A stretch of DNA of 36,427 nt from Clostridia bacterium. Its GTDB lineage: Bacteria; Bacillota; Clostridia; Christensenellales; UBA3700. Under the pieces are notes generated by a model. That model saw only the letters and a list, made by a program, of their open reading frames with translations, was not told where the DNA came from and made no database searches. Below, one piece after another: positions 5,793 through 33,854 of the stretch; the first letter of the stretch is position 1; each line of letters opens with the position of its first letter. Location: NCBI GenBank assembly GCA_016287155.1, contig JAEEWC010000050.1, forward strand, positions 1 through 36,427. Direction: 5' to 3'. The position numbers were made by a program, and so were the translations under genes.

Positions 5793-5794
5793 AA

Positions 5795-5810: not shown

Positions 5811-5828
5811 AAAATGTTTAATTTATAA

Positions 5829-5858: not shown

Positions 5859-5874
5859 AGTTGAGGAGAGAAAA

Positions 5875-6342
5875 ATGATTAAAGTAGTATTTGTGTGTCA
5901 CGGTAATATTTGCAGATCTCCTATGGCGGAGTATGTATTCAAAGATATAGTTGAAAAGAGGGGCGTTAAAGACTCTTTTTATATCGAATCAAGAGCTACA
6001 TCTACAGAAGAGATTGGAAATAGAATATATCCATACGCAAGAGATGAATTAATAAAGCATAATATTAAAGGCTATGAATCTCATAGGGCTACACAATTTA
6101 CAAGAAGCGATTATAAGACATTTGATTATATATTAGTTATGGATGATAACAATCTATATAACCTAAAGAGAATCATTGGCTTAGATGTAGATAATAAAGT
6201 ATATAGACTTTTAGATTTCACAACAAATAAAGGCGAGATTGAAGATCCTTGGTATACAGGTAATTTTGATAAAGTGTTTAACCAAATTGACAATGGATGC
6301 AAATGCTTTTTAGAATATCTAAAAGAAACAAATAAGGTGTAA
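5875..6342 (+). CDS. Low-molecular-weight protein tyrosine phosphatase
   Basis: A 155-residue LMW-PTP. The P-loop C-x5-R is C8-HGNIC-R14-S near the N-terminus, and the general-acid loop EDPWYTG lies near residue 121, both as in the family. It would hydrolyse phosphotyrosine or phosphoarginine on proteins. The ATG at 5875 follows GAGGAGAG and puts the P-loop at its usual distance from the N-terminus; an upstream in-frame ATG at 5833 would add 14 residues absent from the family and lacks a ribosome site. It begins a four-gene unit with a cysteine synthase-like enzyme, an rRNA methyltransferase and a QueG-like protein. Confidence 0.92.
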   Translation: MIKVVFVCHGNICRSPMAEYVFKDIVEKRGVKDSFYIESRATSTEEIGNRIYPYARDELIKHNIKGYESHRATQFTRSDYKTFDYILVMDDNNLYNLKRIIGLDVDNKVYRLLDFTTNKGEIEDPWYTGNFDKVFNQIDNGCKCFLEYLKETNKV

Positions 6343-6343
6343 G

Positions 6344-7276
6344 ATGATTTATAACAATATTTTAGATGCAATTGGACATACTCCAATTATTAGATTAAAT
6401 AAGATGGTCGATGAAGATTCAGCTCAAGTTTTAGTTAAATTTGAAGGGCTAAATGTTGGCGGTTCTATAAAGACAAGAACAGCATATAACATGATTTGTG
6501 ATGCTGAAGAAAAGGGCCTTATAAATAAAGATTCTATTATTGTTGAACCAACATCAGGCAATCAAGGTATTGGCCTTGCTTTAGTTGGCGCAGTAAAGGG
6601 ATATAGAACAGTTATCATTATGCCAGATAGCGTATCTATTGAAAGAAGAAAGATTATCAATCATTATGGTGCAGAGGTAATTCTTATTCATGATGCTGGA
6701 GATATTGGTGCTTGTATTGATGAATGTTTACAAACAGCACTAAGAATGGCAAAGGAAGATTCAAGAGTATTTGTACCTCAACAATTTGCAAACCCAGCAA
6801 ATCCAACAGCTCATAGACATCACACAGCACTTGAAATATTAGAACAAGTAGCAGGTCCAATTGATGGCTTTTGTTCAGGTATTGGAACAGGTGGAACAAT
6901 AACAGGTATCGGTGAAGTTCTAAAGGCACAATATCCAGATATGACAATTTGGGCAGTTGAACCAAAGAACGCAGCTATCCTTTCTGGTGGTAGTATTGGT
7001 ACTCATATTCAAATGGGTATTGGTGATGGTGTTATCCCTCCAATTTTGAATCAAAATATATATAACGATATTTGCATAGTAACAGATGAAGAAGCTCTAA
7101 ATACATCAAAAGAGTTAGCAAAGAAAGAAGGTATCTTATGCGGTATCTCTAGTGGTACAAATGTATGTGCAGCACTTAAGCTTGCTAAAAAGTTAGGAAA
7201 GGGTAAGACTGTTGTAACTGTTCTTCCAGATACAGCAGAGAGATATTTCTCAACTCCTTTATTTGAAGGTGAATAA
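6344..7276 (+). CDS. Cysteine synthase-family PLP enzyme with variant active-site loops
   Basis: A 310-residue fold-type II PLP enzyme of the CysK/CysM family, which makes cysteine from an activated serine and sulfide. The PLP lysine is in GGSIKTRTA near residue 42, the glycine-rich phosphate cup is GIGTGGTITG near residues 178-187, and the C-terminal motif is ERYFSTPLF. Two positions differ from textbook CysK: the residue after the lysine is Thr instead of the usual Asp, and the substrate loop reads TSGNQG instead of TSGNTG. This may mark a clostridial subfamily or a changed acceptor. It follows the phosphatase stop by 1 nt and overlaps the next gene by TAATG. Confidence 0.85.
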   Translation: MIYNNILDAIGHTPIIRLNKMVDEDSAQVLVKFEGLNVGGSIKTRTAYNMICDAEEKGLINKDSIIVEPTSGNQGIGLALVGAVKGYRTVIIMPDSVSIERRKIINHYGAEVILIHDAGDIGACIDECLQTALRMAKEDSRVFVPQQFANPANPTAHRHHTALEILEQVAGPIDGFCSGIGTGGTITGIGEVLKAQYPDMTIWAVEPKNAAILSGGSIGTHIQMGIGDGVIPPILNQNIYNDICIVTDEEALNTSKELAKKEGILCGISSGTNVCAALKLAKKLGKGKTVVTVLPDTAERYFSTPLFEGE

Positions 7277-13938: not shown

Positions 13939-15012
13939 ATGAAAGATATGTTGCTTCTAAGTAAAGACACAATAATTGCGAAGTATATTAACAACAAATT
14001 AGAGATTGTTAATTATGATTTATTGCCTATGTATTTACAAAGGAATGGAGATTTTGAACTATGGCTTGAATCTCGCGCTGTAGATTCTCATAGAGCGACA
14101 TCACGTTTTATTAAAAAGGCATTAAGACTAGAAGAGAAAGATGATTTGGCGACAGTAATAAAGGTTAATGCTGTGACTATTACGGATACATATTGGGTTA
14201 AACAAATAGATAGCAATTTAACATATAAAGATGTTGTTTATAATGAAGATTTTTATACACAAGTTGCAGCAAAATCATATTCTAACTTGGCATATACCGG
14301 AAGTGGGGATAGTTTGAATTATTTGTTGTATACAAATAAACTATCAAGAACACCTGAGGCAACGAATATAGGAAGTTATGAAAAGTGTTGGAAATTCCAA
14401 AATGGGAATTGGTGGATGTTCAAGAAAGGTAATCGATTCCAAAGATTTTCTGAACTATTTATTTATTATTTAGGAATTGAATTGGGTTTCAACATGGCAA
14501 CATATTCAAAAACAAAAGATGGGGTCAAAACAAGAGATTTTACCAACAATAATGAATATAATTTTGAACCAGCCTTTAGTTTTTTAGGAGATAATGATTC
14601 CTTAGAATATGCAATCGAAAGATTGCAACAAATTGCACCACAAGCCATCCCGGAGTATGTAAACATGATCTATTTGGATGCTTTGGTTAGAAATTTTGAT
14701 AGGCATACTTTTAACTTTGGGCTGTTAAGAAACCCTAATACAGGAGAGATAATTTCGTTAGCTCCCAATTTTGACAACAACAATGCTCTCATATCTAGTG
14801 GATATGAATGGTCAAATCCAAGGAGAGCAAATGACGTTATGGTAGCTGATATTAATAGAGTTATTGAAAATCATCCTACTTATGCAAAGTATATGCCAAT
14901 TGTCACAGAAGATATGGTTGAACGAGCTATTAATAAAACACATATGAAAGTAAAGAAGAAATTAATAATTGCGTTTGTAATGAATGCGTATAGTCAAATA
15001 AATTTCGAATAG
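13939..15012 (+). CDS. HipA-like kinase-fold protein, orphan
   Basis: A 357-residue protein related to HipA/CtkA kinases. The catalytic-core signature ALVRNFDRHTFNFG (about residues 249-262) holds the HipA-type D-R-H...N, and NFDNNNAL (about 275-282) corresponds to the metal-binding Asp loop. The region GNWWMFKKGN near residue 155 could hold the ATP-site lysine. The N-terminus (residues 1-120) is not the usual HipA N-subdomain. HipA proteins phosphorylate proteins such as GltX and are silenced by a HipB antitoxin; none is adjacent here. There is no ribosome site upstream and a promoter -10 abuts the start. A strong terminator follows. A regulatory kinase or phage-defence role is as likely as a toxin. 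Confidence 0.75.
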   Translation: MKDMLLLSKDTIIAKYINNKLEIVNYDLLPMYLQRNGDFELWLESRAVDSHRATSRFIKKALRLEEKDDLATVIKVNAVTITDTYWVKQIDSNLTYKDVVYNEDFYTQVAAKSYSNLAYTGSGDSLNYLLYTNKLSRTPEATNIGSYEKCWKFQNGNWWMFKKGNRFQRFSELFIYYLGIELGFNMATYSKTKDGVKTRDFTNNNEYNFEPAFSFLGDNDSLEYAIERLQQIAPQAIPEYVNMIYLDALVRNFDRHTFNFGLLRNPNTGEIISLAPNFDNNNALISSGYEWSNPRRANDVMVADINRVIENHPTYAKYMPIVTEDMVERAINKTHMKVKKKLIIAFVMNAYSQINFE

Positions 15013-15048: not shown

Positions 15049-15077
15049 TTGCATACGCGCAAAGTATGTTATATCAT
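15049..15077 (+). promoter_or_regulatory. Promoter of the Lrp/aromatic operon
   Basis: TTGCAT (15049-15054), 17 bp and TATCAT (15072-15077). The spacer contains CGCGCAAAG. The start would lie near 15084, leaving a ~30-nt leader with GGAGG before the ATG. The inverted stretch GCATACGCGC...GTATG could be an Lrp site. Confidence 0.6.
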
Positions 15078-15113
15078 TATAATACTATAATATTTTATGC
15101 ACGGAGGCGCATT

Positions 15114-15605
15114 ATGGAAAAATTAGAAAAGAAAGTCTTAGATTTATTACAAGAAGATGCAAGATATACTGCAGCGAAAATTGCGGTTTTATTAGGCAAG
15201 GCGGAAAAGGATATTGAAGCGGCGATTAAGTCACTTGAAGCACAAGGAATCATCGTTAAGTATTCTGCTGTTGTAAATACAGAAAAGACTGGAGAAGATT
15301 TCGTAGATGCGTTAATTGAAATAAAAGTTACACCACAAGCAAGAAGCGGATATGATGCTATTGCGGAACAAATCATTAGCTTCGATGAAGTTAAAGATGT
15401 TTATTTAATGAGTGGTGCTTATGACATCATGGTAACAATTGAAGCAAGAACAATTAGAGATATTGCTTTATTTGTTAGTGATAAGCTAAGCGTAATCGAT
15501 GGAGTTGTAGGAGCTGCTACTCACTTCATCCTAAAGAAATATAAAGAAAGTGGCGTTGATCTACAACCACAAGAAAATAACAAAAGGATAATGATGCACG
15601 AATAA
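15114..15605 (+). CDS. Lrp/AsnC-family transcriptional regulator
   Basis: A 163-residue Lrp/AsnC regulator. The winged-helix DNA-binding domain fills residues 1-55 (LEKKVLDLLQEDARYTAAKIAVLL...EAAIKSLEAQGII), and the RAM/AsnC effector domain fills about 60-145 with VKDVYLMSGAYDIMVTIEA. The ATG at 15114 follows GGAGG by a good distance; the longer frame from 15066 would start inside the promoter. As first gene of an operon for amino acid transamination and oxidation, it probably senses an amino acid and controls its own operon. It ends in a TAATG overlap with the aminotransferase. Confidence 0.9.
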   Translation: MEKLEKKVLDLLQEDARYTAAKIAVLLGKAEKDIEAAIKSLEAQGIIVKYSAVVNTEKTGEDFVDALIEIKVTPQARSGYDAIAEQIISFDEVKDVYLMSGAYDIMVTIEARTIRDIALFVSDKLSVIDGVVGAATHFILKKYKESGVDLQPQENNKRIMMHE

Positions 15606-16789
15606 TGGACTACAGAAAGTATTTAAGTAAGAATGCTGTGGATATCCCACCATCAGGAATTAGAAAATTCTTTGATATTGTCGCTGAAAGACCAGACGCA
15701 ATATCTTTAGGTGTTGGCGAACCAGATTTCGATACACCATGGGTTAGTAGGGAAGCAGCTATCAAGAGCATTCAAAAAGGGTATACACAATATACTAGCA
15801 ACTTTGGTATGCCAAAGTTACGTGATTTAATTAGCAGATATTATAAAGAAAGATATGGAGTTAAATATGATCCTAAGTGCGAAATCCTATGTACAGTAGG
15901 CGCATCAGAAGGTATTGATTTAGCACTTCGCGCTATTTTAAATGTCGACGATGAAGTATTAATTCCAGATCCATCTTACGTTTCATATAGACCTTGCGTT
16001 AGTTTAATTGGAGCAAAGCCAGTTTCAATTAAATGTACAGAAAAAGAAGAATTCAAATTAACACTTGAAAACTTAAAGGCTGCATATACAGCTAAGTCTA
16101 AAGTTTTAATTCTTCCTTATCCAAATAACCCAACAGGCGCTATTATGGAAAGAGACGATTTAGAAAAAATCGTAGATTTTATTAAAGAAAAAGATTTAAT
16201 CGTTATTTCAGATGAAATATATTCAGAATTAACATATACAGATGAAGGACACGTATCTATTGCATCTTTTGATGGAATGCAAGAAAGAACTGTTGTTATA
16301 AACGGATTTTCTAAGGCATTTGCTATGACTGGATGGAGACTTGGCTATGCGCTTGCTCCAAAAGAAATCATCAATGTAATGTATAGAATTCATCAATATG
16401 CCATTATGTGTTGCCCAACGGCAAGCCAATATGCAGGTATTGCTAGTTTAGAGAACGGATTTGAAGATGATTTTTCAACTATCCAAGATATGGTACAAAA
16501 GTATGATGTTAGACGTAGATTCTTAGTTGATGAATTTAACAAGATGGGATTAAAGTGTTTTGCTCCTAAAGGTGCATTCTATGTATTCCCATGTGTAAGT
16601 TCAACTGGTATGGATGGCGAAGAATTTGCAAACAAATTATTTAGAGAAATGAATGTAGCTGTAGTTCCTGGTGGAGCATTTGGCGAAAGCGGAAAGAACT
16701 TCGTAAGAGTTAGTTACGCATATAGTATGAAGAAACTAGAAAAGGCTATATCTTTAATAAAACAATTCGTAGAAAAATATACAAAATAG
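15605..16789 (+). CDS. Class I/II aminotransferase (aromatic or broad-range)
   Basis: A 394-residue fold-type I PLP aminotransferase. Landmarks: NNPTG at 174-178, D203-E204 (ISDEIY), the PLP lysine K237 in GFSKAFAMTGWRLGY and the C-terminal FVRVSYA with the substrate-carboxylate Arg. Sequence flavour is of the aromatic/Asp/MalY-PatA group. Its position directly after the Lrp gene (1-nt overlap) and 11 nt before iorA suggests that it makes aryl-pyruvates from Phe, Tyr or Trp for the oxidoreductase, or runs the reverse reaction. Confidence 0.9.
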   Translation: MDYRKYLSKNAVDIPPSGIRKFFDIVAERPDAISLGVGEPDFDTPWVSREAAIKSIQKGYTQYTSNFGMPKLRDLISRYYKERYGVKYDPKCEILCTVGASEGIDLALRAILNVDDEVLIPDPSYVSYRPCVSLIGAKPVSIKCTEKEEFKLTLENLKAAYTAKSKVLILPYPNNPTGAIMERDDLEKIVDFIKEKDLIVISDEIYSELTYTDEGHVSIASFDGMQERTVVINGFSKAFAMTGWRLGYALAPKEIINVMYRIHQYAIMCCPTASQYAGIASLENGFEDDFSTIQDMVQKYDVRRRFLVDEFNKMGLKCFAPKGAFYVFPCVSSTGMDGEEFANKLFREMNVAVVPGGAFGESGKNFVRVSYAYSMKKLEKAISLIKQFVEKYTK

Positions 16790-16800
16790 AGGAACATAAT

Positions 16801-18543
16801 ATGAGTGAAAAGAAGATTATGTTAGGTAATGAGGCTATTGCGCGCGGTGCTTGGGAAGCAGGCGTAAAGGTTTCTAGTGCATATCCAGGCACACCTAGTA
16901 CAGAAATCAGTGAAAACATTGTTAAGTATTGCCCAGATTTATATTGCGAATGGGCACCAAACGAAAAAGTAGCTATGGAAGTTGCTATCGGCGCTTCAAT
17001 GGCTGGCGTTAGATCTTTAGTATCTATGAAACACGTAGGTGTTAATGTTGCTTCAGATCCATTGTACACAGTATCTTACATTGGCGTAAGCGGTGGACTT
17101 GTTATGGTTGCTGCTGATGACCCAGGTATGTATAGTTCTCAAAATGAACAAGATTCAAGAATGGTTGCAAGAGCAGCAATGGTTCCAGTATTAGAACCAT
17201 CTGATTCTTCAGAAGCAAAAGAGTTCGTTAAGATTGCTTATGAATTAAGTGAAAAATACGATACTCCAATTATGCTAAGAACAACAACTAGACTTGCTCA
17301 CTCTCAAGGTATTGTAAATCTTGAAGATAGAAAAGAAGTTCCAGATAAGGTTTATGAAAGAGATATTGCTAAGCGCGTTATGATGCCAGGCAATGCTATT
17401 AAGAGACACTTATTTGTTGAAAAGAGATTAAAGGATATGGCAAACGATGCTGCATCTTTTGAAATCAATAGAGTTGAATATAATGATAAGAAGATTGGTG
17501 TCATTACATCTGGTATTCCATACCAATATGTTAAAGAAGCTCTACCTACAGCTTCAGTATTGAAGTTAGGTTTAGTTCACCCACTTCCAAGAAAGTTAAT
17601 TGAAGAATTCGCAAAGAATGTAGAAACTTTATATATTGTAGAAGAATTAGAACCAGTTATTGAAGAACAAGTTAAATCTTGGGGCATCAAGTGTATTGGT
17701 AAAGAAATCTTCACAGTTCAAGGTGAATACAGCGCAAATATGGTTGCTAAAGCAATTTTAGGAAAAGGAACAGAATTCGATGCTCCAGCTCAAGCTCCAG
17801 CAAGACCTCCAATCCTTTGCCCAGGATGCCCACACAGAGCAACATTCTCACTTTTAAAGAGATTAAAGATTCATGCAGCTGGAGATATCGGATGTTACAC
17901 ATTAGGTGCAGTAGCTCCTCTATCTGTTATTGATACAACAGTTTGCATGGGTTCAAGTATTTCAACACTTCATGGTATGGAAAAGGCTAAAGGCAAGGAT
18001 TACATTAAGAACTGGGTAGCAGTTATCGGTGATTCTACATTCCTACACACAGGTGTTAACTCATTAATGAATATGGTATACAACCAATCAACAGCAACAG
18101 TAATGATCCTAGATAACTCAACAACAGGTATGACAGGACACCAAGACCATGCTGCTACAGGTAAAACATTAATGGGACAAAGCGTTAAGCCAATCCTTCT
18201 TGATGAGTTATGCAAGGGTATGGGTATCAAGAATGTAGTAGTTGTTGACGCTTATGATCAAGAAAGATTAGAAAAGGTAGTTAAAGAAGAAATCGCTAAG
18301 GATGAATTGAGCGTAATTATTGCTCAAGCTCCATGTGCTCTTCTAAAGAGTTATGTTCCAAAGGGCAAGTGCATCACATTATCTGATAAGTGTAAGAAGT
18401 GCGGAATGTGCTTAGTTCCAGGATGTCCAGCAATTACAAAGAAGGCTGATGGTACAGTTGCAATCGACGATACAATGTGTAACGGTTGTGGATTATGTAT
18501 GCAAAGATGTAAATTCGGTGCTATAGAGAGGGTAAGTAAGTAA
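16801..18543 (+). CDS. iorA: Indolepyruvate:ferredoxin oxidoreductase, alpha subunit
   Basis: A 580-residue alpha subunit of the TPP-dependent aryl-pyruvate oxidoreductase. With IorB it converts indolepyruvate, phenylpyruvate or 4-hydroxyphenylpyruvate plus CoA to aryl-acetyl-CoA, CO2 and reduced ferredoxin; the reaction is reversible. The N-terminal pyrimidine-binding region has SAYPGTPSTEISENI. The middle has RPPILCPGCPHRA and the TPP-Mg motif GDSTFLHTGVNSLMNMVYNQ. The C-terminus carries two [4Fe-4S] motifs, CKKCGMCLVPGCP and CNGCGLCMQRCK. Length is close to the family (about 600). iorB follows after 1 nt. The exact preferred 2-oxo acid is not visible. Confidence 0.95.
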   Translation: MSEKKIMLGNEAIARGAWEAGVKVSSAYPGTPSTEISENIVKYCPDLYCEWAPNEKVAMEVAIGASMAGVRSLVSMKHVGVNVASDPLYTVSYIGVSGGLVMVAADDPGMYSSQNEQDSRMVARAAMVPVLEPSDSSEAKEFVKIAYELSEKYDTPIMLRTTTRLAHSQGIVNLEDRKEVPDKVYERDIAKRVMMPGNAIKRHLFVEKRLKDMANDAASFEINRVEYNDKKIGVITSGIPYQYVKEALPTASVLKLGLVHPLPRKLIEEFAKNVETLYIVEELEPVIEEQVKSWGIKCIGKEIFTVQGEYSANMVAKAILGKGTEFDAPAQAPARPPILCPGCPHRATFSLLKRLKIHAAGDIGCYTLGAVAPLSVIDTTVCMGSSISTLHGMEKAKGKDYIKNWVAVIGDSTFLHTGVNSLMNMVYNQSTATVMILDNSTTGMTGHQDHAATGKTLMGQSVKPILLDELCKGMGIKNVVVVDAYDQERLEKVVKEEIAKDELSVIIAQAPCALLKSYVPKGKCITLSDKCKKCGMCLVPGCPAITKKADGTVAIDDTMCNGCGLCMQRCKFGAIERVSK

Positions 18544-18544
18544 T

Positions 18545-19114
18545 ATGGAAACTAAGAATATTATGATTGTTGGCGTAGGTGGCCAAGGTACATTGTTAAC
18601 AAGTAGAGTTCTTGGCGGTATTATTACTGCTGCAGGATATGATGTAAAACTATCTGAAGTTCATGGAATGGCTCAACGTGGTGGTTCTGTTGTAACTTTC
18701 GTTAGATATGGCGATAAGGTTTATGAGCCAATCGTAGAAGAAGGAAAGGCAGATGTTCTAATCGCTTTTGAAAGATTAGAAGCTCTAAGATATGCTCACT
18801 TCTTAAAGAAAGATGGTGTTTTGATTGTTAATGACCAAAGAATTGATCCAATGACAGTAGTAACAGGTGTTGCTACATATCCAGAAAATATTATCGAAGA
18901 TTTATCTAAGAAATATAACGTAATTAAGGTTAATGCGATGGACGAAGCTAAAAAGCTTGGTAACACAAGAGTATTCAATACAATTATCGTTGGTGTTGCT
19001 GCAAAGCATATGGACTTTAAGAAGGAACAATGGTTAGAAATAATTGAAAAGACAGTTCCTCAAAAAACTATCGATATTAATAAGGCAGCTTTTGAAGTTG
19101 GCTATAATCTATAA
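18545..19114 (+). CDS. iorB: Indolepyruvate:ferredoxin oxidoreductase, beta subunit
   Basis: A 189-residue gamma/beta-type subunit of the 2-oxoacid oxidoreductase family, partner of IorA. The N-terminus MIVGVGGQGTLLTSRVLGG and the segment EVHGMAQRGGSVVTFVRYG are diagnostic. It contributes to CoA binding and the active site. Size matches known IorB proteins of about 190-200 residues. It lies 1 nt after the iorA stop, with the ribosome site GAGGG inside the end of iorA. Confidence 0.95.
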   Translation: METKNIMIVGVGGQGTLLTSRVLGGIITAAGYDVKLSEVHGMAQRGGSVVTFVRYGDKVYEPIVEEGKADVLIAFERLEALRYAHFLKKDGVLIVNDQRIDPMTVVTGVATYPENIIEDLSKKYNVIKVNAMDEAKKLGNTRVFNTIIVGVAAKHMDFKKEQWLEIIEKTVPQKTIDINKAAFEVGYNL

Positions 19115-19123
19115 GGTGACAAA

Positions 19124-19630
19124 ATGGGACAAAAAATTGAGATTAAATTAAATGATGGCAGAGTAATGAGAGCTGAACTTTATGAAGATAAGGCTCCAAT
19201 TACATGTAAAAACTTTTTAGAATTAGTAGATAAAGGATTCTACACAGGACTAATCTTCCACAGAGTTATTCCAGGCTTTATGATTCAAGGTGGCGGTATG
19301 TATCAAACTCTTGAAGAAAAAGGTGGATTAAAACCAATCAAGGGTGAGTTCAAACAAAATGGCGTAAAAAATGATATAACTCACGAATTAGGAGTTTTAT
19401 CTATGGCAAGAACAATGGATCCTAATTCAGCAACATCACAATTCTTTATTTGCGTAGATGATGCATCTTTTCTAGATGGCCAATATGCCGCATTCGGTAA
19501 ATTGATTGATTCAGATTCTGAAAAGGTTGCTGTAGATATTTCAAAAGTTAAGACAGTTACATTTAGATGGTATGAAGATGTTCCTCTAACACCTATTGTT
19601 ATTGAATCAATAAAGAGAATTAAGGAGTAA
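19124..19630 (+). CDS. Cyclophilin-type peptidyl-prolyl isomerase
   Basis: A 168-residue single-domain cyclophilin that catalyses cis-trans isomerisation of Xaa-Pro bonds. The active-site strand FHRVIPGFMIQGGG contains the catalytic Arg and Phe. Also present are SMARTMDPNSATSQFFICVDD and FLDGQYAAFGKL. No signal peptide, so it is cytoplasmic. Its insertion between iorB and the CoA ligase, with 9- and 2-nt gaps, is not the usual operon partnership. It may just be carried, or may help fold the oxidoreductase. Confidence 0.93.
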   Translation: MGQKIEIKLNDGRVMRAELYEDKAPITCKNFLELVDKGFYTGLIFHRVIPGFMIQGGGMYQTLEEKGGLKPIKGEFKQNGVKNDITHELGVLSMARTMDPNSATSQFFICVDDASFLDGQYAAFGKLIDSDSEKVAVDISKVKTVTFRWYEDVPLTPIVIESIKRIKE

Positions 19631-19632
19631 TT

Positions 19633-20937
19633 ATGATTTGGGCTAAAGAAGAAACTCTATCTAGAGAAGAGATAGAAGCTATACAATTAGAGAAATTAAA
19701 GAAATTAGTAGTAAGAATGTATGATAAGGCTCCATATTTCAAAAAGAAAATGGATGATATGGGCTTAAAACCAGATTGCATTAAGACAATTAAAGATATT
19801 CAAAAACTTCCATTTACAACTAAGCAAGAAATGAGAGATAACTACCCATTCAACATGCTTATGGTTCCAATGAAAGATATTGTAAGAATCCATGCTTCAA
19901 GTGGTACAACAGGAAAGCCAACTGTAGTTGCATATACAAAAAACGATTTGGATATGTGGGCGGAATGTGTTGCAAGATTAGCTGTTGCTGGCGGTGCTAC
20001 AAAAGATGATATCGCACAAATTTGTTTTGGTTATGGTATGTTCACAGGCGCTCTAGGTCTACACAATGGACTAGAAAAGGTTGGCGCTGCTATTATCCCA
20101 TCTTCAACAGGTAATACACAAAAGCAACTTCTATATATGAAAGATTTTGGTTCAACACTATTAGTTGCAACTCCTTCATATGCTATGAGAATTGCAGAAG
20201 TAGCAAAAGAAATTGGTATTGACCCAAAGAAAGATTTGAAGTTAAAGATTGGCCTTTTAGGTAGTGAATTATTAACAGAAGCTATGAGAACTGAACTTCA
20301 TAAGGTTTATGGCGAAGATATGTTAATTACACAAAACTATGGTATGAGCGAATTAATCGGACCTGGTGTTTCTGGTGAATGTGAATATCTTTGCGGTATG
20401 CACGTAAATGAAGACCACTTCTTAATCGAAGTTATTGACCCAGTTACAGGTGAAGTTTTACCAGAAGGCGAGAAGGGCGAAGTTGTTATTACATGTTTAG
20501 ATAAGGAAGCTTTACCACTTATTCGTTATAGAACAAGAGATATTTCAAGATTATTCTATGGTAAGTGCAAGTGCGGAAGAACAACAGTTAGAATGGAAAA
20601 TCTATCTGGAAGAACAGACGATATGTTAAAGATTCGTGGCGTAAATGTATTCCCATCTCAAATCGAAGAAGCTTTACTTGGTATTGAGGGAATCGGTCCT
20701 AACTATGAAATAGTTGTAGAGAAGAATGGAAGCTCAGATGTATTAACAATCAGAGTTGAATTAGATCCAGAAAAGATGCAAGATTCTGTAGCATTTATTG
20801 CAAATCTTGAAAAGACAATAAAAGACAAGATTAAGTTCATTCTTGGACTTGATGCAAAGATTAAGATTGAAAATCCTAACACACTTCAAAGATTTGAAGG
20901 AAAAGCAAAGAGAGTTAGAGATTTAAGAAACGCATAA
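19633..20937 (+). CDS. paaK: Phenylacetate-CoA ligase family enzyme
   Basis: A 434-residue adenylate-forming enzyme of the PaaK family, linking phenylacetate or a related aryl-acetate to CoA with ATP. The AMP-binding P-loop is ASSGTTGKPTV (about residues 95-105). YGMSELIGPGVSGEC is the acyl-adenylate motif, and IRYRTRDISRLFYGKCKCGRT with GRTDDMLKIRGVNVFPSQIEE marks the hinge and C-terminal domain. In this operon it could activate imported aryl acids for reductive carboxylation by IorAB, which would salvage amino acids, or run with the oxidative direction. Family length is about 430-440. Confidence 0.9.
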   Translation: MIWAKEETLSREEIEAIQLEKLKKLVVRMYDKAPYFKKKMDDMGLKPDCIKTIKDIQKLPFTTKQEMRDNYPFNMLMVPMKDIVRIHASSGTTGKPTVVAYTKNDLDMWAECVARLAVAGGATKDDIAQICFGYGMFTGALGLHNGLEKVGAAIIPSSTGNTQKQLLYMKDFGSTLLVATPSYAMRIAEVAKEIGIDPKKDLKLKIGLLGSELLTEAMRTELHKVYGEDMLITQNYGMSELIGPGVSGECEYLCGMHVNEDHFLIEVIDPVTGEVLPEGEKGEVVITCLDKEALPLIRYRTRDISRLFYGKCKCGRTTVRMENLSGRTDDMLKIRGVNVFPSQIEEALLGIEGIGPNYEIVVEKNGSSDVLTIRVELDPEKMQDSVAFIANLEKTIKDKIKFILGLDAKIKIENPNTLQRFEGKAKRVRDLRNA

Positions 20938-20948
20938 GGAGATTAATT

Positions 20949-21371
20949 ATGTTCGTAAAACAATTATGTGTATTTATTGAAAATAAGCATGGTAAATTCC
21001 AAGAATTAACAAACGTATTTGCTGAATATGGAATCAATATGATAAGCCTTAGCTTATCTGATAGCACAGCATATGGCGTAGCAAGATTAATCGTTTCTGA
21101 TACGGATAAGGCTCAAAAGGCTTTAGCTGCTAACGGATTTGCATCTGTAGTAAATGATATTATGGCTATTAAGCTAGATAATAAATTAGGCGAATTAAAT
21201 AAGCTAATTAAAGAACTAAACGAAGGCGGAATCGATGTTCAATATGCTTATTCATTAACGTCAGGTAAAGAAGCAGCAATTTTGCTTAAGACTCTTGATG
21301 ATAAGAAGGCTGAAAAGATTATCGCTAAAAACCATAGTTTCTATACAGAAGAAGAAATCTATAATCTTTAA
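20949..21371 (+). CDS. Tandem ACT-domain protein
   Basis: A 140-residue protein made of two ACT domains (about 1-68 and 70-140). The first begins VKQLCVFIENKHGKFQELTNVFAEYGINMISLSL, the second ELNKLIKELNEGGIDVQYAYSL. ACT domains bind amino acids. This tandem form is often found next to PaaK and IorAB genes in anaerobes, where it is thought to sense an aromatic amino acid and modulate the enzymes. It has no DNA-binding or catalytic part. The ribosome site is AAGGAG. Confidence 0.9.
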   Translation: MFVKQLCVFIENKHGKFQELTNVFAEYGINMISLSLSDSTAYGVARLIVSDTDKAQKALAANGFASVVNDIMAIKLDNKLGELNKLIKELNEGGIDVQYAYSLTSGKEAAILLKTLDDKKAEKIIAKNHSFYTEEEIYNL

Positions 21372-21373
21372 TT

Positions 21374-22210
21374 ATGGTAATAGATTTTCATAATCACTTT
21401 TATCCAGATAAAATAGCACAAAAGGCTATAGATAAGCTATCTACAGATGCAGATATAATTGCGTATACAGATGGCACGCTTCAAGGATTAAGTGATGATA
21501 TTAAAAATGCCGGATATGATTTAGGAGTTGTGCTTCCAGTAGCTACAGCTCCTAAACAAGTCGAGGGCATAAATACTCGAGCAATCCAAGTTCAAGAACA
21601 ATTTCCAAATTTAATTTCTTTTGCAGCAATGCATCCTGATTATGAAAATTATAAAGATGAAATCTTTAGAATAAAAGAATTAGGACTTAAAGGTATAAAA
21701 TTCCATCCAGATTATCAAGAAACATTTTTTGATGATGACAAGATGCTTAGAATTTTAGACGAAGCATTTAAGAACGATTTAATAGTAGTTGTGCACGCGG
21801 GCATAGATATAGGGCTTCCTAATCCTGTTCATACAGGAATCGAGCAAATACTTAATGTCTTAGATATTTTTAAAGATAGAGCCCAAAAATTAGTCCTAGC
21901 ACATACTGGCGGTTGGGGGCTATGGGATGAAGTGTATGAAAAAATTGCAGGAAGAAATGTTTATATGGATATCTCTTTCTCATTAGGCACTACTATAAAG
22001 AAATCAAATGGAAAAATTCAAAAGCTTATCGAAGATGATATGCTTATGAAAATTGTAAAAAAGCACGGAGTAGATAAAATACTTTATGGAACTGACTCTC
22101 CTTGGGGTGATCATAAAATGATGTTAGATAAATTTATGACACTGCCATTTACAAAAGAAGAGCAGGATAAGATATTGTATCAAAACGCTAAAAAGTTATT
22201 GAGGATATAA
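21374..22210 (+). CDS. Amidohydrolase-2 family metal-dependent hydrolase
   Basis: A 278-residue TIM-barrel enzyme of the amidohydrolase 2 family (ACMSD-like hydrolases and decarboxylases). Metal ligands visible: H6-x-H8 in DFHNHF, His in LKGIKFHPDYQ, His in VVVHAGID, His in LVLAHTGGWG and Asp in LYGTDSPWG. The substrate is unknown. Being last in the aromatic operon, it might decarboxylate or hydrolyse an aromatic side product, but that is only context. The ATG follows the ACT stop by 2 nt without a clear ribosome site, so translation may be coupled. No convincing terminator follows. Confidence 0.8.
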   Translation: MVIDFHNHFYPDKIAQKAIDKLSTDADIIAYTDGTLQGLSDDIKNAGYDLGVVLPVATAPKQVEGINTRAIQVQEQFPNLISFAAMHPDYENYKDEIFRIKELGLKGIKFHPDYQETFFDDDKMLRILDEAFKNDLIVVVHAGIDIGLPNPVHTGIEQILNVLDIFKDRAQKLVLAHTGGWGLWDEVYEKIAGRNVYMDISFSLGTTIKKSNGKIQKLIEDDMLMKIVKKHGVDKILYGTDSPWGDHKMMLDKFMTLPFTKEEQDKILYQNAKKLLRI

Positions 22211-26098: not shown

Positions 26099-26127
26099 TT
26101 GAAATTTAAAGTTTAGTTTGATATTAT
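26099..26127 (+). promoter_or_regulatory. Promoter of surface lipoprotein gene
   Basis: TTGAAA (26099-26104), 17 bp and TATTAT (26122-26127), with TG just before the -10. Start near 26134, 29 nt before the ATG, with CGAGGG as ribosome site. Confidence 0.75.
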
Positions 26128-26162
26128 TATATTTGTATAAATTTGCCTTACGAGGGATAAAT

Positions 26163-29100
26163 ATGAAGAACACTTACAAAATACTATTAATAACAATAAT
26201 GCTTTTAGCAATAATACTTGCTTTTGCTGCATGTAATGATGACGATGTTAAGACATCTTTGGATAATCCAACAAATATCGCAGCAAGCGGATCTACAATA
26301 AGCTGGAGCGCAGTCGATGGTGCTACATCTTATGATATTATCGTAGAAGATGCTGAAGCAAAGAACACAGAAAATACATATTACAACTTAGATTTAACAG
26401 AAATAGGTTCTTATTTAATCAAGATTAGAGCAGTAGGAAAGAATTCTCAAGGCGCTGTAATTTATAGTGATTATGTAGAATATACATTTGTTAAGTCAGA
26501 AAAATTAGCTACTCCAACAGTAACAGTTAATGATAAATTAGCTACATGGGCAGCAATAGAAAATGCAGCTTCATATAATGTAAGAGTAGTAGATAGCTCT
26601 TCAACAGAATTATATAGCGGAACACAAAGCGAATTATCTTACAGCTTTGATAATGAAAAATATACATCAGTAGGTAAGTACACAATCCTAGTAAAGGCAA
26701 TCCCAGAAGCAACAAAATCAGAATATGCAAACTCTGAAGCAGGCCCAGGTTATTATATTGTTACTTCAAAATTGTCTGCTCCATCAATTTCATCTGTTTC
26801 TTCAACAGCGGTAAGATGGACATCAATTTCCGGCAGTTCAAGTTATGAATTATATTTATATGAAGATGATGGAACATTAGTATCTACATATACAACAACA
26901 TCAAATTCATATGCATTCTCTTATATGAAATTAGACAACTATGGTAAATATTACTGCAGAGTAAAAGCTATCGGTGATCGCGAAGTATATCTAGATAGTG
27001 AAGTTGGTGAAAGGGTTCCTGCATATGATTTATTAGTTATTCCAACAATCGATGAAACTACAGTTGATTTATATCAAGATGCAAGTGGTACATGGAAATT
27101 AAAATTTGAAGTAGAAAATACAAATAAATTATCTAGTATTACAATTACTTTAACAACAACAAAGGCAGATTCTTCATCTTCTATGTCAGCTATTGAAAAG
27201 ACATTAGAAATGATTCAAGGCAAATCTGAATATACTATTGTATCAGATGCTGATTTTAATGCTGCTTTAACTTACTATGTTAAGAATACATCGGCAAGTG
27301 GATACATTAAGAACACAAAGCCATATGATGCACTTCAAACGTATTATACATTTGATGGTGTAGAATTTAAGAAGGCTACAGTTAGTGCTTTATCTAGTGT
27401 TATTGAATATTATGTAAAAGTAGGAGATCCTGGCGCTGATTATTATGAAGAAGCAAAGGGTGCTGTTTCATATACTGAAGTTAATAAAGATACAGCCGCT
27501 TTCAATACAAGAAATAATTACTATACAAAAGAAGCTGATGTATATACATTAGTTACATCTACATATGAAAACAAGGGAACTTATGATAATTTAAATTCTC
27601 AAGATACAACTACTGTATATCTAAAGAATAATGGCGATGGTACATATACAAAAATGGGTACATATACTCAACTTGATTCAACAGATTTAATTACTGAATA
27701 TTGGGTATATAAGTCATTTACAGCATTTGATTCAAATACAACATACTATACTGCATCTTATGAAGAATTTGGTTCAGCAGATTATTCAGCAGATACATTC
27801 TATAAATTAGTAAAGACAACATTTGATACATCAATCGATGATTTATTCTTCGAAGTTGATACATCAGGTAATTATACATATAAGAAGACAGATATTGCAT
27901 ATTATGGAAGAATCTTCGATGTTACAGTATCTGCAACAGGTATTAAAGATTCGATTATCACAGGAAAGTCAATTGATGTTGATGGAAACTATATTTCATT
28001 TAGACATCCAAATAAAGTAGATGAGGATCTTGCATGGACTGCATCTCCTTTACAAGGATATTTCAAGACAGAAGCAGAATATATAGCATTCGTTACAGAA
28101 TATGATGATTATTATGCAGTAGAATCTATTGGTGATTTGCAATATATGCAATATGACAATGATGGTGCTAAATATGTATTAATGCAAGATTTAGACGCTG
28201 AAGGTTACTACTGGGCTCCAATTGATTCATTTACAGGTTCAATTTTAGATGGTAACAACCACAAGATTTCTAATATCGTATATGCAAGAATTGATGGTAG
28301 AGCAGAAGCTTTAATATCTGAATCAAGTGGTGCTTCTATTTTGGATTTATATATAGTTGATGCTTCAAATGAGGCAGATGCTACAGAATATTGCGCTGGT
28401 ATTATTGGCGATGCATATGATACACAAATTACAAATTGTTATGTAAAGGCAAAATTCTCAACAGCAACTTTTGCTGGTGGTATTATTGCTGAAGGTAAGA
28501 AAGTTAAGATAACAAATTGTCAAACATTAATCACAATTGAAAATGTAGCTATATCTGCTGGTATTGCAGCATATGGTGAAGATTTAGAGTTAAAAGGATG
28601 TATTGCATCTGGAAGCATTGATGTCGATGACGTATATTTCTCTCTAGGCGATTTTGACGCTATGTCAAATAATGGAAATATAGATGATGATTGTAGAATT
28701 TATGTTCTACAAGATAGCAAGTATGTATATGTTGGCGAATTTAGAGATAAAGATACTGTAGATTTTAAAGATGACGATGGCGAATATTATGAAGAATATT
28801 TCTTGAGAATAACAGAATTGTCTAGAGGTGTTGTAGCTGCAGGTTTAGTTAGCGGACTACAAGGTGGCTCAATAGATAATTCAATCGCTCAAGTATCTAT
28901 TACAATTGATGCCCCTACAATGCCTGCTTATGCTGGCGGAGCAGTTGCTATGGCAAACCATTGTACTATTACAAATACATTTGCTGGTAATAAATATTCT
29001 AAGAATAACCCAGATAGAATGAATATTGTTGTAAATGGTCTACACACTATTGTTGGTGGTTTTGTTGGAGAAACAGTAGATGCAACAATAGATAATTGTT

Positions 29101-29708
29101 ATACAACAATTAGAGTATCTGCAAAAGAAAATTTAGGTGGATTTGTAGGTAAATGCTCTGATGATTTAAACAATACAGGATCTCGAATAACAAATTGTTA
29201 TTCAACAGGTGGCGTTGCTGATCAAATCTCAACAAACAAGGGATATTTTGTTGGTTATATGTATGATACTCATACAACAATAACAAATTGTTATATTTAC
29301 GATTGGGAACATGCTACAGTTCATGATGACCATGCAACAACAGCTGCATCTTTAGATGCAATCAAGACTGCAATCAATGAAGCTAAAGCTGGTTCATTAG
29401 CAACAATCACAGGATATCTTGAACCAACACTTATGGATGTTGCTTATGCATCTGCTTACACAGATAGCATCAAGGCTTCTGGTAAGATCAATGTTAAGGC
29501 ATATCTTGCTGTATATGATTCTACAACTCAAGAAACAACAATTATTGATATGTATGCGGATGAAGAAAAAGTAGATCAAATCGTAATTGGCGATAAGTCA
29601 GCTAAGGGTACAATCTTAGTTGTTCTACAACAAAAGGTTGACGAAAACAACGATGGCGTTGATGATGGAACTGGTGCTAGAGTAGTAATCTACATCACAG
29701 TAAGTTAA
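26163..29708 (+). CDS. Large modular surface lipoprotein (Fn3-like, Tyr-rich repeats, GLUG beta-helix)
   Basis: An 1181-residue predicted lipoprotein: signal peptide with lipobox LAFAAC (lipidated Cys at about 24), followed by an acidic linker. Residues ~30-285 form three fibronectin-III-like repeats (patterns such as ISWSAVDGATSYDIIVED and IKIRAVG). An Ig-like part starts near 300 and appears interrupted at ~358-583 by degenerate Tyr-rich repeats (TYYT/YYVK every 20-30 residues). From ~640 to 1090 come GLUG-like repeats (GGFVGETVDATIDNCY, GGFVGKCSDD) of a right-handed beta-helix. Near the end DENNDGVDDG looks like a calcium loop. There is no LPXTG. It probably binds a polymer or host ligand at the surface. 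ATG 26163 chosen because it begins the signal peptide after CGAGGG. Coupled by TAATG to a GNAT gene. Confidence 0.8.
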   Translation: MKNTYKILLITIMLLAIILAFAACNDDDVKTSLDNPTNIAASGSTISWSAVDGATSYDIIVEDAEAKNTENTYYNLDLTEIGSYLIKIRAVGKNSQGAVIYSDYVEYTFVKSEKLATPTVTVNDKLATWAAIENAASYNVRVVDSSSTELYSGTQSELSYSFDNEKYTSVGKYTILVKAIPEATKSEYANSEAGPGYYIVTSKLSAPSISSVSSTAVRWTSISGSSSYELYLYEDDGTLVSTYTTTSNSYAFSYMKLDNYGKYYCRVKAIGDREVYLDSEVGERVPAYDLLVIPTIDETTVDLYQDASGTWKLKFEVENTNKLSSITITLTTTKADSSSSMSAIEKTLEMIQGKSEYTIVSDADFNAALTYYVKNTSASGYIKNTKPYDALQTYYTFDGVEFKKATVSALSSVIEYYVKVGDPGADYYEEAKGAVSYTEVNKDTAAFNTRNNYYTKEADVYTLVTSTYENKGTYDNLNSQDTTTVYLKNNGDGTYTKMGTYTQLDSTDLITEYWVYKSFTAFDSNTTYYTASYEEFGSADYSADTFYKLVKTTFDTSIDDLFFEVDTSGNYTYKKTDIAYYGRIFDVTVSATGIKDSIITGKSIDVDGNYISFRHPNKVDEDLAWTASPLQGYFKTEAEYIAFVTEYDDYYAVESIGDLQYMQYDNDGAKYVLMQDLDAEGYYWAPIDSFTGSILDGNNHKISNIVYARIDGRAEALISESSGASILDLYIVDASNEADATEYCAGIIGDAYDTQITNCYVKAKFSTATFAGGIIAEGKKVKITNCQTLITIENVAISAGIAAYGEDLELKGCIASGSIDVDDVYFSLGDFDAMSNNGNIDDDCRIYVLQDSKYVYVGEFRDKDTVDFKDDDGEYYEEYFLRITELSRGVVAAGLVSGLQGGSIDNSIAQVSITIDAPTMPAYAGGAVAMANHCTITNTFAGNKYSKNNPDRMNIVVNGLHTIVGGFVGETVDATIDNCYTTIRVSAKENLGGFVGKCSDDLNNTGSRITNCYSTGGVADQISTNKGYFVGYMYDTHTTITNCYIYDWEHATVHDDHATTAASLDAIKTAINEAKAGSLATITGYLEPTLMDVAYASAYTDSIKASGKINVKAYLAVYDSTTQETTIIDMYADEEKVDQIVIGDKSAKGTILVVLQQKVDENNDGVDDGTGARVVIYITVS

Positions 29709-30202: not shown

Positions 30203-31774
30203 TTATTCAGCGATTACTTTATCGTCTACAACTTCAACTAATTTGCTCTTTGTTGCTTTATCAAATAGAGAAGTAACTTCTTCTGATGGAGCTTCTGTTA
30301 ATAGAGATACAACAATAGCTACTACAATACCTACGATGAAACCTGGAATGATTTCGTATAGATTTGTGTTGTAAATAGCACTATGTCCACCATAGTATTC
30401 GTAGTTCAATAAGAACATCCATAATACATCTACTGTGAATCCAGAAACGATAGCAGCTACGGCGCCCTTATAGTTCAATCTTCTCCAATATAGAGATAAG
30501 ATGATAACTGGTCCGAATGCAGCACCAAATGCAGCCCAAGCAGCTGATACTAAGCTCATAATTGTAGCGAAAGCTTTAACGATTGGCTTATCACCATAAC
30601 CAAGCATTGCGATAGCAAATGCAATTAAAGAAATAACAACAACGACGATTCTACCTGCCCATAAGATTTCTTTATCATTTGCATTCTTTCTAATAGTTGT
30701 TTTATATACGTCAGATGCGAATGCTGAAGAAGAAGCAAGTAATTGAGAATCGGCTGTTGACATACTAGCAGCTAAAATAGCTGAAATAATAACACCACCG
30801 ATAAATACAGGGAATACTGTTGATGCCATCTTTACGAATACTGTTGAAGAAGATTCAACTGTATCGCCTAGATATAATCTACCAACGATACCAACAACAG
30901 AAGCCATGATAAGGATTAGAGTTGTCCAGCCAATACCGATGATTCTAGATTTCTTCATTTCTTTTTCTGACTTAATAGAAATGTATCTTACGATGATGTG
31001 TGGCATACCAAAGTATCCAAGGCCCCAGCCAAGACCTGTTAGAGCAGTAGAAACGCTTTCCCAATCGAACTTACCACTAACAAGTAAATTGTAATAATTT
31101 TCTGGAATATCTACGTTGCCTACAGCGCCATTTAATTTTAATAAGATAACAGCGATAATTGGAGTAATCATTAGGGCAGCTAACATTAATAAACCTTGTA
31201 AGAAGTCTGTCCAACATACAGCATTGAATCCGCCTAAGAATACATAAGCGATAATGATGATAGTTGCGATTGTCATACCAATTCTTTCATCAAGATTGAA
31301 TAGTGTCTTAAATAATGTTCCGCAAGCTGTAATACTAGATGCACCATATACACAATATACGATGATAAAGATAACGGCACAAATGACTTGAAGAGACTTG
31401 CTAGAAGATAAGAATCTGTTTGTTAAATATTGAGGGATAGTAATAGAATCGTTAGCTAGAATTGAATATCTACGTAGTCTTGGAGCAACTAAAAACCATG
31501 CTAAAATTGTTCCGATTAAAAGACCAATTGAAATCCAAACTTGACCAATGCCATAAAGATAGATTGATCCTGGAAGGCCCATCAATACCCAAGCACTCAT
31601 GTCTGATGCTCCGGCAGATAGTGCAGCAACCATACCACCCATTTTTCTACCGCCAAGGAAGAAACTCTTTTCTCCGCTTAGCTTTCTATCTTGCATAAAG
31701 AAGTATATACCAATGCCAATTACGACAAGGAAGTATAGTACAAATGCAACGATGTTTCCTGCTTCTACTTTCAT
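30203..31774 (-). CDS. putP: Sodium/proline symporter
   Basis: A 523-residue SSS-family transporter with about 13 membrane helices. Family features: N-terminal GEKSFFLGGRKMGGMVAALSAGASDMSAWVLMGLPG (in parts), the PutP-type stretch GYFGMPHIIVRYISIK and SMSTADSQLLASSSAFASD containing Na2-site Ser/Thr. It imports proline with Na+. The ATG at 31774 follows AAAGGTG; an upstream ATG at 31807 would add 11 residues from the leader. It has its own promoter and lies after the terminator of the next symporter, so it is not in the T-box unit. Confidence 0.85.
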   Translation of the reverse strand: MKVEAGNIVAFVLYFLVVIGIGIYFFMQDRKLSGEKSFFLGGRKMGGMVAALSAGASDMSAWVLMGLPGSIYLYGIGQVWISIGLLIGTILAWFLVAPRLRRYSILANDSITIPQYLTNRFLSSSKSLQVICAVIFIIVYCVYGASSITACGTLFKTLFNLDERIGMTIATIIIIAYVFLGGFNAVCWTDFLQGLLMLAALMITPIIAVILLKLNGAVGNVDIPENYYNLLVSGKFDWESVSTALTGLGWGLGYFGMPHIIVRYISIKSEKEMKKSRIIGIGWTTLILIMASVVGIVGRLYLGDTVESSSTVFVKMASTVFPVFIGGVIISAILAASMSTADSQLLASSSAFASDVYKTTIRKNANDKEILWAGRIVVVVISLIAFAIAMLGYGDKPIVKAFATIMSLVSAAWAAFGAAFGPVIILSLYWRRLNYKGAVAAIVSGFTVDVLWMFLLNYEYYGGHSAIYNTNLYEIIPGFIVGIVVAIVVSLLTEAPSEEVTSLFDKATKSKLVEVVDDKVIAE

Positions 31775-31811
31775 ATTTTTCACCTTTAAAAATTTTAATA
31801 ATAACATTTAG

Positions 31812-31843: not shown

Positions 31844-31881
31844 AAATATAAAAAAAGACCACGAGCGACTTGCCCGTGGTC
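31844..31881 (-). terminator. Terminator of T-box symporter gene
   Basis: GACCACG/CGTGGTC arms (31857-31881) with an 11-nt loop that can pair further. On the minus strand the hairpin is followed by seven Ts and TATATTTTTC. Confidence 0.88.
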
Positions 31882-31903: not shown

Positions 31904-33556
31904 TTATACATATGGTAGTGGTTCTTCTACCTTTTCGCCGATTGCTTCAGTAGCACTAGCGATAACTTTGCCTGTATAGCATGTGAAGATTTCGTTAACC
32001 TTTAGTGGATCTAAGATACCTTTCTTCTTTTCAAATCTATATGTAAGAAGTGAAACGATTGGAACGATAACGATTGTAACTAGCATAGCAATAGCACCAG
32101 CTACAACAGCGTTAGCAAGATTTAGAACTTCACCTGAAGATAATGTGAATGCTAAGAAGTTCCAGTTAGCAAGTTTGTAGATTAGTGAGAAGATCATAAT
32201 TGTCAAACCAACTACAAAGCTTGTCCATACAGCTGACTTTGTAACTTTCTTCCAGTATAAACCAAATAGGAATGGAGCTAAGAATGCGCCAGCTAAAGCA
32301 CCCCAAGAAATACCCATCAATGATGCAATTTCACTGAAGTTGAATAATTTTTGAATGATAGCAATTGCAGCAGAGACAATAATGAATACTGCAATAAATA
32401 TTCTCATAATTAAAACTTGCTTCTTATCTGTCATGTTTTCTTCTTTAACAATTGAACCTTTGATTAAATCAAGTGTTAGAGTTGAAGAAGATGTTAAAAC
32501 AAGAGAAGATAGTGTAGACATTGAAGCAGATAAAACTAGGATGACAACAAGCGCCATCAAAAAGTCTGATGTAACTGCTTTTTCTAACATTGCTGGAACG
32601 ATTGAGTCGAAGTCCTTTGTGTTAGATACGAATAATCTGCCAAAGCCTCCTAAGAAGTAACATCCACCAGCAACGATGATAGCAAAGATTGTAGAAATGA
32701 TTGTACCTTTCTTAATATCTTGTTCATTTTTGATAGCATAGAATTTACCAACCATTTGAGGTAATCCCCATGTACCTAAAGATGTTAGGATAACTACGAA
32801 GATTAAGAATACTGGCATTGGACCTGCGAATGATGTATATTCCCAACCAATGTTTTCTGATGTAGCCATAGCTGTTACTGCTGATGTAAATCCGCCTTGA
32901 GAATTCAAAACAGCTGCGATAACTGCAATGATACCAACAATCATAATGAAACCTTGAACGAAGTCGTTAATAGCTGTAGCCATATATCCACCAACTGTTA
33001 CATAGATAGCAGTAAGTACAGCCATAATACATACGATGATTACATAAGCAAGATTTTCATTTTCAAATTCAAATGCTACTGTGAATAATCTAGATAAACC
33101 ATTGAATAGAGAAGCAGTGTATGGGATTAAGAAAATAAATACAATAATTGCTGCTGCTAACTTCAAAGACTTTGAATCAAATCTCTTACCAAAGAAATCT
33201 GGCATTGTTTTTGAATCTAACTTTTGTGTCATGATTCTTGTTCTTCTACCAAGAATTGACCAAGCAAGAAGTGATCCAATAAATGCGTTACCTAGACCAA
33301 TCCATGTAGATGAAATACCAAATAAGTAACCAAATTGACCTGCATAACCAATAAAGATAACGGCACTAAAGTAAGATGTTCCGTAAGCAAAAGCTGTAAG
33401 CCATGGGCCAACGCTTCTTCCACCAAGAACAAATCCATTTACGTTTGTAGCTTTCTTTCTGCAGATGATTCCGATTGCAATCATGATACCGAAGAACACT
33501 ACCATCATAACTACGTTAGTCACGATTCTAGATGTAGACGCTGCAAGTAAAAACAT
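31904..33556 (-). CDS. Sodium:solute symporter under Tyr T-box control, likely tyrosine importer
   Basis: A 550-residue SSS-family Na+-coupled transporter with about 13-14 helices. Typical features: GFVLGGRSVGPWLTAFAYGTSYFSAVIFIG near the N-terminus (in parts), GTWGLPQMVGKFYAIK and SASMSTLSSLVLTSSSTLTLD with Na2-site serines. It is related to, but clearly distinct from, the PutP encoded downstream. A complete T-box leader with a Tyr UAC specifier precedes it, so transcription should rise when tRNA-Tyr is uncharged; this makes tyrosine, or an aromatic precursor or peptide, the best substrate guess. ATG 33556 follows GGAGG. By homology alone I could not choose a substrate. Confidence 0.85.
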   Translation of the reverse strand: MFLLAASTSRIVTNVVMMVVFFGIMIAIGIICRKKATNVNGFVLGGRSVGPWLTAFAYGTSYFSAVIFIGYAGQFGYLFGISSTWIGLGNAFIGSLLAWSILGRRTRIMTQKLDSKTMPDFFGKRFDSKSLKLAAAIIVFIFLIPYTASLFNGLSRLFTVAFEFENENLAYVIIVCIMAVLTAIYVTVGGYMATAINDFVQGFIMIVGIIAVIAAVLNSQGGFTSAVTAMATSENIGWEYTSFAGPMPVFLIFVVILTSLGTWGLPQMVGKFYAIKNEQDIKKGTIISTIFAIIVAGGCYFLGGFGRLFVSNTKDFDSIVPAMLEKAVTSDFLMALVVILVLSASMSTLSSLVLTSSSTLTLDLIKGSIVKEENMTDKKQVLIMRIFIAVFIIVSAAIAIIQKLFNFSEIASLMGISWGALAGAFLAPFLFGLYWKKVTKSAVWTSFVVGLTIMIFSLIYKLANWNFLAFTLSSGEVLNLANAVVAGAIAMLVTIVIVPIVSLLTYRFEKKKGILDPLKVNEIFTCYTGKVIASATEAIGEKVEEPLPYV

Positions 33557-33581
33557 AATAACCTCCTAGTGCATAAGGCAT

Positions 33582-33819
33582 AAAAAAACCTCTATGCATA
33601 TTTACTTACATAGAGGACGAATAAATCCGTGGTACCACCTCATTTTACGCTAATTGCGCCTCAAACATTTTTACAGATGTCTCTGTCGTAGCCTACACAT
33701 CTTTCGACTTCGGTACGCTGCTCCGAGAATGTATTCGTTATAATTGTCCTGATGCTTTTCACCAACCAACATCTCTCTAAAAGGCTCAAAGATAATTACT
33801 TGTTTCTCTTCAACGCTTT
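33582..33819 (-). ncRNA. T-box riboswitch, tyrosine (UAC) specifier
   Basis: On the minus strand the leader shows T-box hallmarks in order: AGTA of the Stem I loop-E motif (about 33802-33799), AGAGAG and GGTTGGTG in the Stem I distal part, and GAA followed by UAC (specifier at 33733-33731) then A. CTCGGAGCAGCG closes Stem I. The T-box AGGTGGTACCACGG (33640-33627) has the UGGU bulge to pair with an ACCA tRNA end. The terminator CCTCTATG/CATAGAGG plus seven Us is at 33616-33582. UAC means Tyr and tRNA-Tyr has discriminator A, consistent with UGGU. Uncharged tRNA-Tyr should allow antitermination into the symporter gene. Confidence 0.93.
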
Positions 33820-33825
33820 AACAAA

Positions 33826-33854
33826 ATTTTATAGAAAAAATATATATATGTCAA
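33826..33854 (-). promoter_or_regulatory. Promoter of T-box leader
   Basis: Minus strand TTGACA (33854-33849), 17 bp, TAAAAT (33831-33826); TATAAA two bases upstream is an alternative. Start near 33819. It is back-to-back with the HAD gene promoter. Confidence 0.78.

Follow-up and report, generated by a model that had tools for sequence, protein, structure and literature searches.

A tyrosine T-box controls an SSS-family symporter linked to AMP-forming ligase and IorAB genes in Clostridia

A tyrosine T-box leader precedes a single symporter gene

The window analyzed here, a 36,427-nucleotide stretch of DNA from a Clostridia bacterium, carries on its minus strand a sodium:solute symporter (SSS) gene (33556–31904) that stands alone between two terminators. 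Its leader and flanking signals are arranged as follows.

33826..33854, minus strand: promoter-like TTGACA-17-TAAAAT, 11 of 12 consensus positions (consensus match only)
33610..33822, minus strand: tRNA-Tyr T-box leader (RF00230, 119.7 bits, E 3.7e-26)
33731..33733, minus strand: specifier codon UAC (Tyr), from the covariance alignment; UAC in 53/53 distinct orthologous leaders
33634..33637, minus strand: UGGU in the antiterminator bulge, complementary to the ACCA end of uncharged tRNA-Tyr (from the sequence and the discriminator A of the genus tRNA-Tyr)
33589..33616, minus strand: leader terminator overlapping the antiterminator 3' arm (10 pairs, loop 8, T7)
31904..33556, minus strand: SSS-family sodium:solute symporter, 550 aa (PF00474, 181.5 bits); favored candidate substrate 4-hydroxyphenylacetate, from regulation and gene company
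31857..31881, minus strand: terminator 3' of the SSS gene (10 pairs, then T7)

T-boxes turn genes on when their cognate tRNA is uncharged, that is, in starvation, and the tyrosine class is known from Bacillus subtilis tyrS. The leader at 33822–33610 matches RF00230 over its full length (1–219 of 219) and exceeds the gathering score of 93 bits, with an E-value that rules out a chance match; it is the sole T-box in the window, also at a relaxed threshold. The specifier loop reads GAA-UAC-A with UAC at 33733–33731, and the covariance alignment together with the conserved UAC in every orthologue rules out the frames AUA and ACA. The sequence-only reading would have fallen had a covariance model put the specifier on a different codon, and it withstood this check. 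In two genomes of the same genus the tRNA-Tyr(GUA) 3' end is ...CCTGCCC-A-CCA, with discriminator A, and UGGU pairs with this A73; a search of the window's own, incomplete genome found no tRNA-Tyr. The competing terminator of a T-box is present at 33616–33589. By every feature tested this leader is an ordinary T-box, and the sequence-only reading was correct in its coordinates and leader anatomy: a UAC specifier after GAA, a UGGU bulge suited to discriminator A73, terminators at 33616–33589 and 31881–31857, and an SSS-family symporter as the only gene before the second of these. With the B. subtilis tyrS type it shares the full-length RF00230 match, UAC, UGGU and a transcription terminator; it differs in its target, which is an SSS transporter (in relatives, a ligase–IorAB operon) in place of a gene for a tRNA synthetase or for a standard biosynthetic step.

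The PF00474 (SSF) match spans residues 42–447 of the 550-residue protein. The top NCBIfam models, PutP (TIGR02121, 198 bits against a cut-off of 515) and PanF (TIGR02119, 151 bits against 328), both fall far under their cut-offs; the protein shares the Pfam family of these symporters and is by these models neither a proline (PutP) nor a pantothenate (PanF) symporter. It lies nearer to both than to ActP or MctC-type acid carriers. Among solved structures a sequence search finds SGLT1 only, and because the query segment SASMSTLSS aligns with AALMSSLTS of SGLT1, the Ser-Thr pair of TM8 is present, residues that are candidate ligands of the Na2 site. A second SSS symporter lies directly downstream (30203–31807, minus strand); it reaches 486 bits with PutP against the cut-off of 515 and has no T-box.

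An SSS gene is an unusual T-box target. NhaC-family transporters controlled by Tyr T-boxes have been described in Firmicutes (PMC2494555), and there too a transporter gene is placed under tRNA-Tyr; the window's protein belongs to another family, SSS being absent from the transporter table of that study, which also mentions a 'sodium symporter' with long leaders, its family unnamed. A full-text search combining T-box, indolepyruvate and phenylacetate returned no match; earlier listing in T-box surveys is possible. The NhaC precedent and the presence of PutP, a proline symporter, among the nearest models both favor a sodium-coupled importer of tyrosine (or of aromatic amino acids) controlled by tRNA-Tyr, with the ligase and IorAB described below serving as a parallel relief of shortage. 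We regard this reading as a serious alternative, although probably not the right one.

The T-box–symporter pairing recurs across one clade

Our searches covered 297 genomes from the order and 391 from the class, plus loci extracted from them. Scanning genome contigs yielded 11 relatives, including three at 84–90% identity whose leaders score above the RF00230 gathering score; one relative at 56% identity has a T-box by sequence. Across Clostridia, 53 distinct SSS orthologue loci carry an upstream T-box, and the specifier is UAC in every one (53/53, mostly read by script and the remainder by eye), with the Rfam gathering score reached by 16 of 20 sampled leaders. A FastTree phylogeny of 185 SSS proteins places all 52 rows that have a T-box within one clade of 95 rows (support 99), inside which the T-box has been gained or lost many times, and none of 69 loci from distant SSS subfamilies (<50% identity) has one. 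The same pairing in related genomes, proposed as a check on the sequence-only reading, is thus found widely. One orthologue (L020, genome G238), 76% identical and nested among T-box relatives on the tree, has neither a T-box nor a Tyr leader and has likely lost the switch recently.

In the same clade, four loci that lack a T-box (L036, L040, L042 and L044) instead have short leader ORFs containing Tyr-codon runs: MLHCRKYYYRLYLNR, MTHRAYSYYYYRFAPGKGRPTCP and MIAVRRTARYYYYRFAARSKAGRLCP, the last one occurring twice. A strict rule (RBS-like sequence, 10–40 aa, YYY) selects exactly these 4 of 191 leaders, against 4 of 3820 shuffled ones. At L040 an 11-pair terminator lies 3' of the leader ORF, and a terminator scan downstream of the ORF at L036 found none; before IorA, there was no convincing case of a Tyr- or Trp-rich leader. 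On the tree the Tyr-rich leaders require at least two origins. Their natural reading is ribosome-mediated attenuation, which would be convergent with the T-box. Control of the SSS gene by tyrosine is genuine and conserved, and in part convergent.

A tyrosine importer would suit both the Tyr T-boxes and the Tyr leader peptides found on the SSS gene itself. These leaders bear differently on the idea that the symporter carries an unrelated substrate and that the T-box ties it only loosely to a lack of amino acids. Sequence is a poor guide to SSS substrates, and SGLT1 was the lone match among solved structures, but the presence in a single clade of two unrelated types of tyrosine-sensing leader, and the clade's steady link to aryl-CoA enzymes, make this extremely unlikely.

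The symporter keeps company with aryl-CoA enzymes

In the window organism the transporter stands under its T-box and the enzymes lie in an operon about 10 kb away (15066–22210), which encodes the same module that accompanies the symporter in relatives.

15066..15605, plus strand: Lrp/AsnC-type regulator, head of the ior operon (PF01037, PF13412)
15605..16789, plus strand: class I/II aminotransferase, candidate for the last step to tyrosine (PF00155, 263 bits)
16801..18543, plus strand: IorA, arylpyruvate:ferredoxin oxidoreductase alpha (TIGR03336, 701 bits, above the cut-off of 651)
18545..19114, plus strand: IorB, adjoining IorA (PF01558, 141 bits)
19633..20937, plus strand: PaaK-like candidate AMP-forming arylacetate-CoA ligase (TIGR02155, 499 bits, best model, below the cut-off of 646)
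20949..21371, plus strand: ACT-domain pair protein, candidate amino acid sensor (PF19571, 93 bits)
21374..22210, plus strand: amidohydrolase of the same operon (PF04909), 38% identical to a homologue in the Tyr T-box operon of L225

A cyclophilin gene lies between IorB and PaaK, and the core of the module is conserved within the genus. No T-box was found on this operon, at a relaxed threshold included. Just 5' of it is an ORF with a weak HipA C-terminal match (13939–15012, plus strand); further along the window, a 1196-aa ORF (26118–29708, plus strand) has no NCBIfam match and contains a sub-threshold SNORD58 match that is surely due to chance.

Transporter and enzymes are joined in one transcription unit in several relatives. 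Eight loci (L198, L199, L202, L203, L204, L206, L207 and L208) have the order Tyr T-box, SSS, AMP-forming ligase, IorA, IorB, and in a ninth mapped genome (L225) the same operon has an amidohydrolase inserted after SSS. PaaK comes next in six of these nine operons and the ACT-pair protein occurs in five; L199 also encodes an aminotransferase-fold protein 3' of the PaaK and ACT-pair genes, and family scans confirmed the gene assignments at L198, where the ligase gene occupies 5624–7261. At five further T-box loci a ligase adjoins SSS and IorA was not seen, and the other mapped T-box loci have, like the window, neither ligase nor IorA next to SSS. Relatives without a T-box, L230–L236 among them, show the orders ligase-SSS-IorAB or SSS-PaaK-IorAB. 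Because more distant SSS relatives that lack a T-box still adjoin PaaK and IorA, the symporter's link to aryl-CoA chemistry seems to predate the T-box.

Co-occurrence points the same way: IorA is present in 111 of 117 genomes with the SSS family and in 47 of 180 without it (297 genomes; odds ratio 52, uncorrected for kinship), and it was absent from all five genomes checked in the window's family that lack the SSS protein, one of them of the same genus. Gene order and co-occurrence therefore bind the SSS family to ligases and IOR, T-box-less cases included, which argues against tyrosine itself as the substrate. Against an aryl acid stand the nearest models, PutP and PanF, the former also speaking for tyrosine. 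Tyrosine is further favored over an aryl acid by the many T-box-controlled SSS genes that stand alone and by one genome (G104, 88% complete) in which a Tyr-leader-controlled SSS gene occurs with no IorA or TyrA detected, as would fit tyrosine import. Most relatives do possess TyrA and chorismate synthase, which rules out tyrosine auxotrophy as a general reason for the control; the window's own genome (83% complete) gave no match to either.

Aromatic T-boxes also control the enzymes

In one genome (G608), one Tyr T-box belongs to the SSS gene (L125, 120.4 bits) and another heads a ligase-IorA operon that is separate from it (L298, 114.6 bits, GAATACATTCC). Paralogous IorAB-PaaK operons, whose IorA is ~40% identical to that of the window, have T-boxes directly 5' of IorA at eight loci (L240, L247, L272, L274, L275, L277, L285 and L286). 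These score 50–81 bits, below the gathering score of 93, all with E <1e-7. Set by eye against the loop-closing helix, their specifier is UGG, and their bulges are UGGC or UGGU; the tRNA-Trp discriminator is G in four genomes with such T-boxes, and U stands opposite G in 46% of Trp T-boxes according to TBDB (PMC7778990). With Tyr T-boxes on ligase-IorA(B) and Trp T-boxes on the paralogous IorAB-PaaK, one IOR set so answers to tyrosine and a second to tryptophan. Matches to GGTGGAACC and GGTGGCACC in L313–L315 fall within the coding sequence of a ligase or of IorA and were set aside.

This control bears on the direction of the pathway. The sequence-only reading had tentatively linked the symporter to the window's aromatic-acid operon through import and breakdown of tyrosine; the tie to such an operon holds in relatives, and it is the breakdown that is disfavored. 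If tyrosine were imported for IOR fermentation to 4-hydroxyphenylacetate, the ior operon in the same window would be at hand, and IOR can work oxidatively (PMC13285125). However, a switch thrown by uncharged tRNA-Tyr should not turn on tyrosine degradation, T-boxes that are on with uncharged tRNA-Tyr or tRNA-Trp control the ligase and IorAB themselves, and the ligases belong to the AMP-forming type, which consumes ATP, so that we consider breakdown very unlikely. Since T-boxes switch on in starvation and control ligase and IorAB, the ligase-IorAB operons beneath them most likely run towards synthesis.

A proposed route for tyrosine salvage

An AMP-forming ligase beside IOR in Bacteroides is an arylacetate-CoA ligase and has been taken as a sign of biosynthesis, whereas the oxidative fermentation of tyrosine by C. 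scatologenes relies on a phosphotransferase and a kinase (PMC13285125). IOR together with this ligase in Bacteroides, and IOR in methanogens, have been proposed to work towards aromatic amino acids (PMC13285125); the window and its relatives carry what looks like the same enzyme pair and differ in being Clostridia and in adding an ACT protein, a transporter and control by tRNA sensing. The biosynthetic sign and the T-box control together favor import of 4-hydroxyphenylacetate, and we think that the symporter is probably an aryl-acid symporter serving tyrosine salvage. The earlier proposal of a transporter for tyrosine or an aromatic precursor survives in its second half: the company of ligase and IorAB now favors the precursor, and tyrosine as the substrate is not established.

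Under the salvage reading, the anticodon of uncharged tRNA-Tyr would pair with UAC and its free ACCA end with UGGU, letting the antiterminator form and transcription proceed into the SSS gene. The symporter would then import an aryl acid, chiefly 4-hydroxyphenylacetate, with sodium; the AMP-forming ligase would convert it into a CoA thioester, which IorAB, with reduced ferredoxin, would reductively carboxylate to 4-hydroxyphenylpyruvate, and an aminotransferase would yield tyrosine. The SSS family includes PaaL of Pseudomonas putida. Likened by description, this phenylacetate permease is needed for arylacetate use, as proposed for the window's symporter, in a context of aerobic catabolism unlike that of the window (PMC3224230).

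More broadly, we lean slightly towards the view that uncultured Clostridia possess a reductive pathway from aryl acids to amino acids regulated by tRNA charging, in which Tyr T-boxes or leaders would drive an uncharacterized sodium/4-hydroxyphenylacetate symporter clade, a ligase and IorAB, and Trp T-boxes a paralogous IorAB-PaaK set that converts indoleacetate to tryptophan. In that case IOR would serve biosynthesis under regulation in these organisms, T-box control by the cognate aromatic tRNA would offer a sequence-only test of IOR direction, and a transporter clade would be named with a directly testable substrate. Anaerobic rumen and gut bacteria form aromatic amino acids from arylacetates, an old physiological observation that would gain a regulated gene set of transporter, ligases, oxidoreductase and ACT protein. 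Arylacetates are common gut metabolites, and the interpretation of host metabolite data would gain from knowing which bacteria consume and which produce them.

Further T-boxes in these genomes

At L277 a second, strong T-box (5153–5405, plus strand, 95 bits) lies 3' of the IorAB-PaaK operon, before a TIM-barrel isomerase-like ORF. The window's genome has further T-boxes at L002 and L005 (contigs C89 and C56); one of them, with the specifier UGG (Trp), lies upstream of a gene for an ABC-type substrate-binding protein, and the other precedes a cysE-like and cysS-like gene pair.
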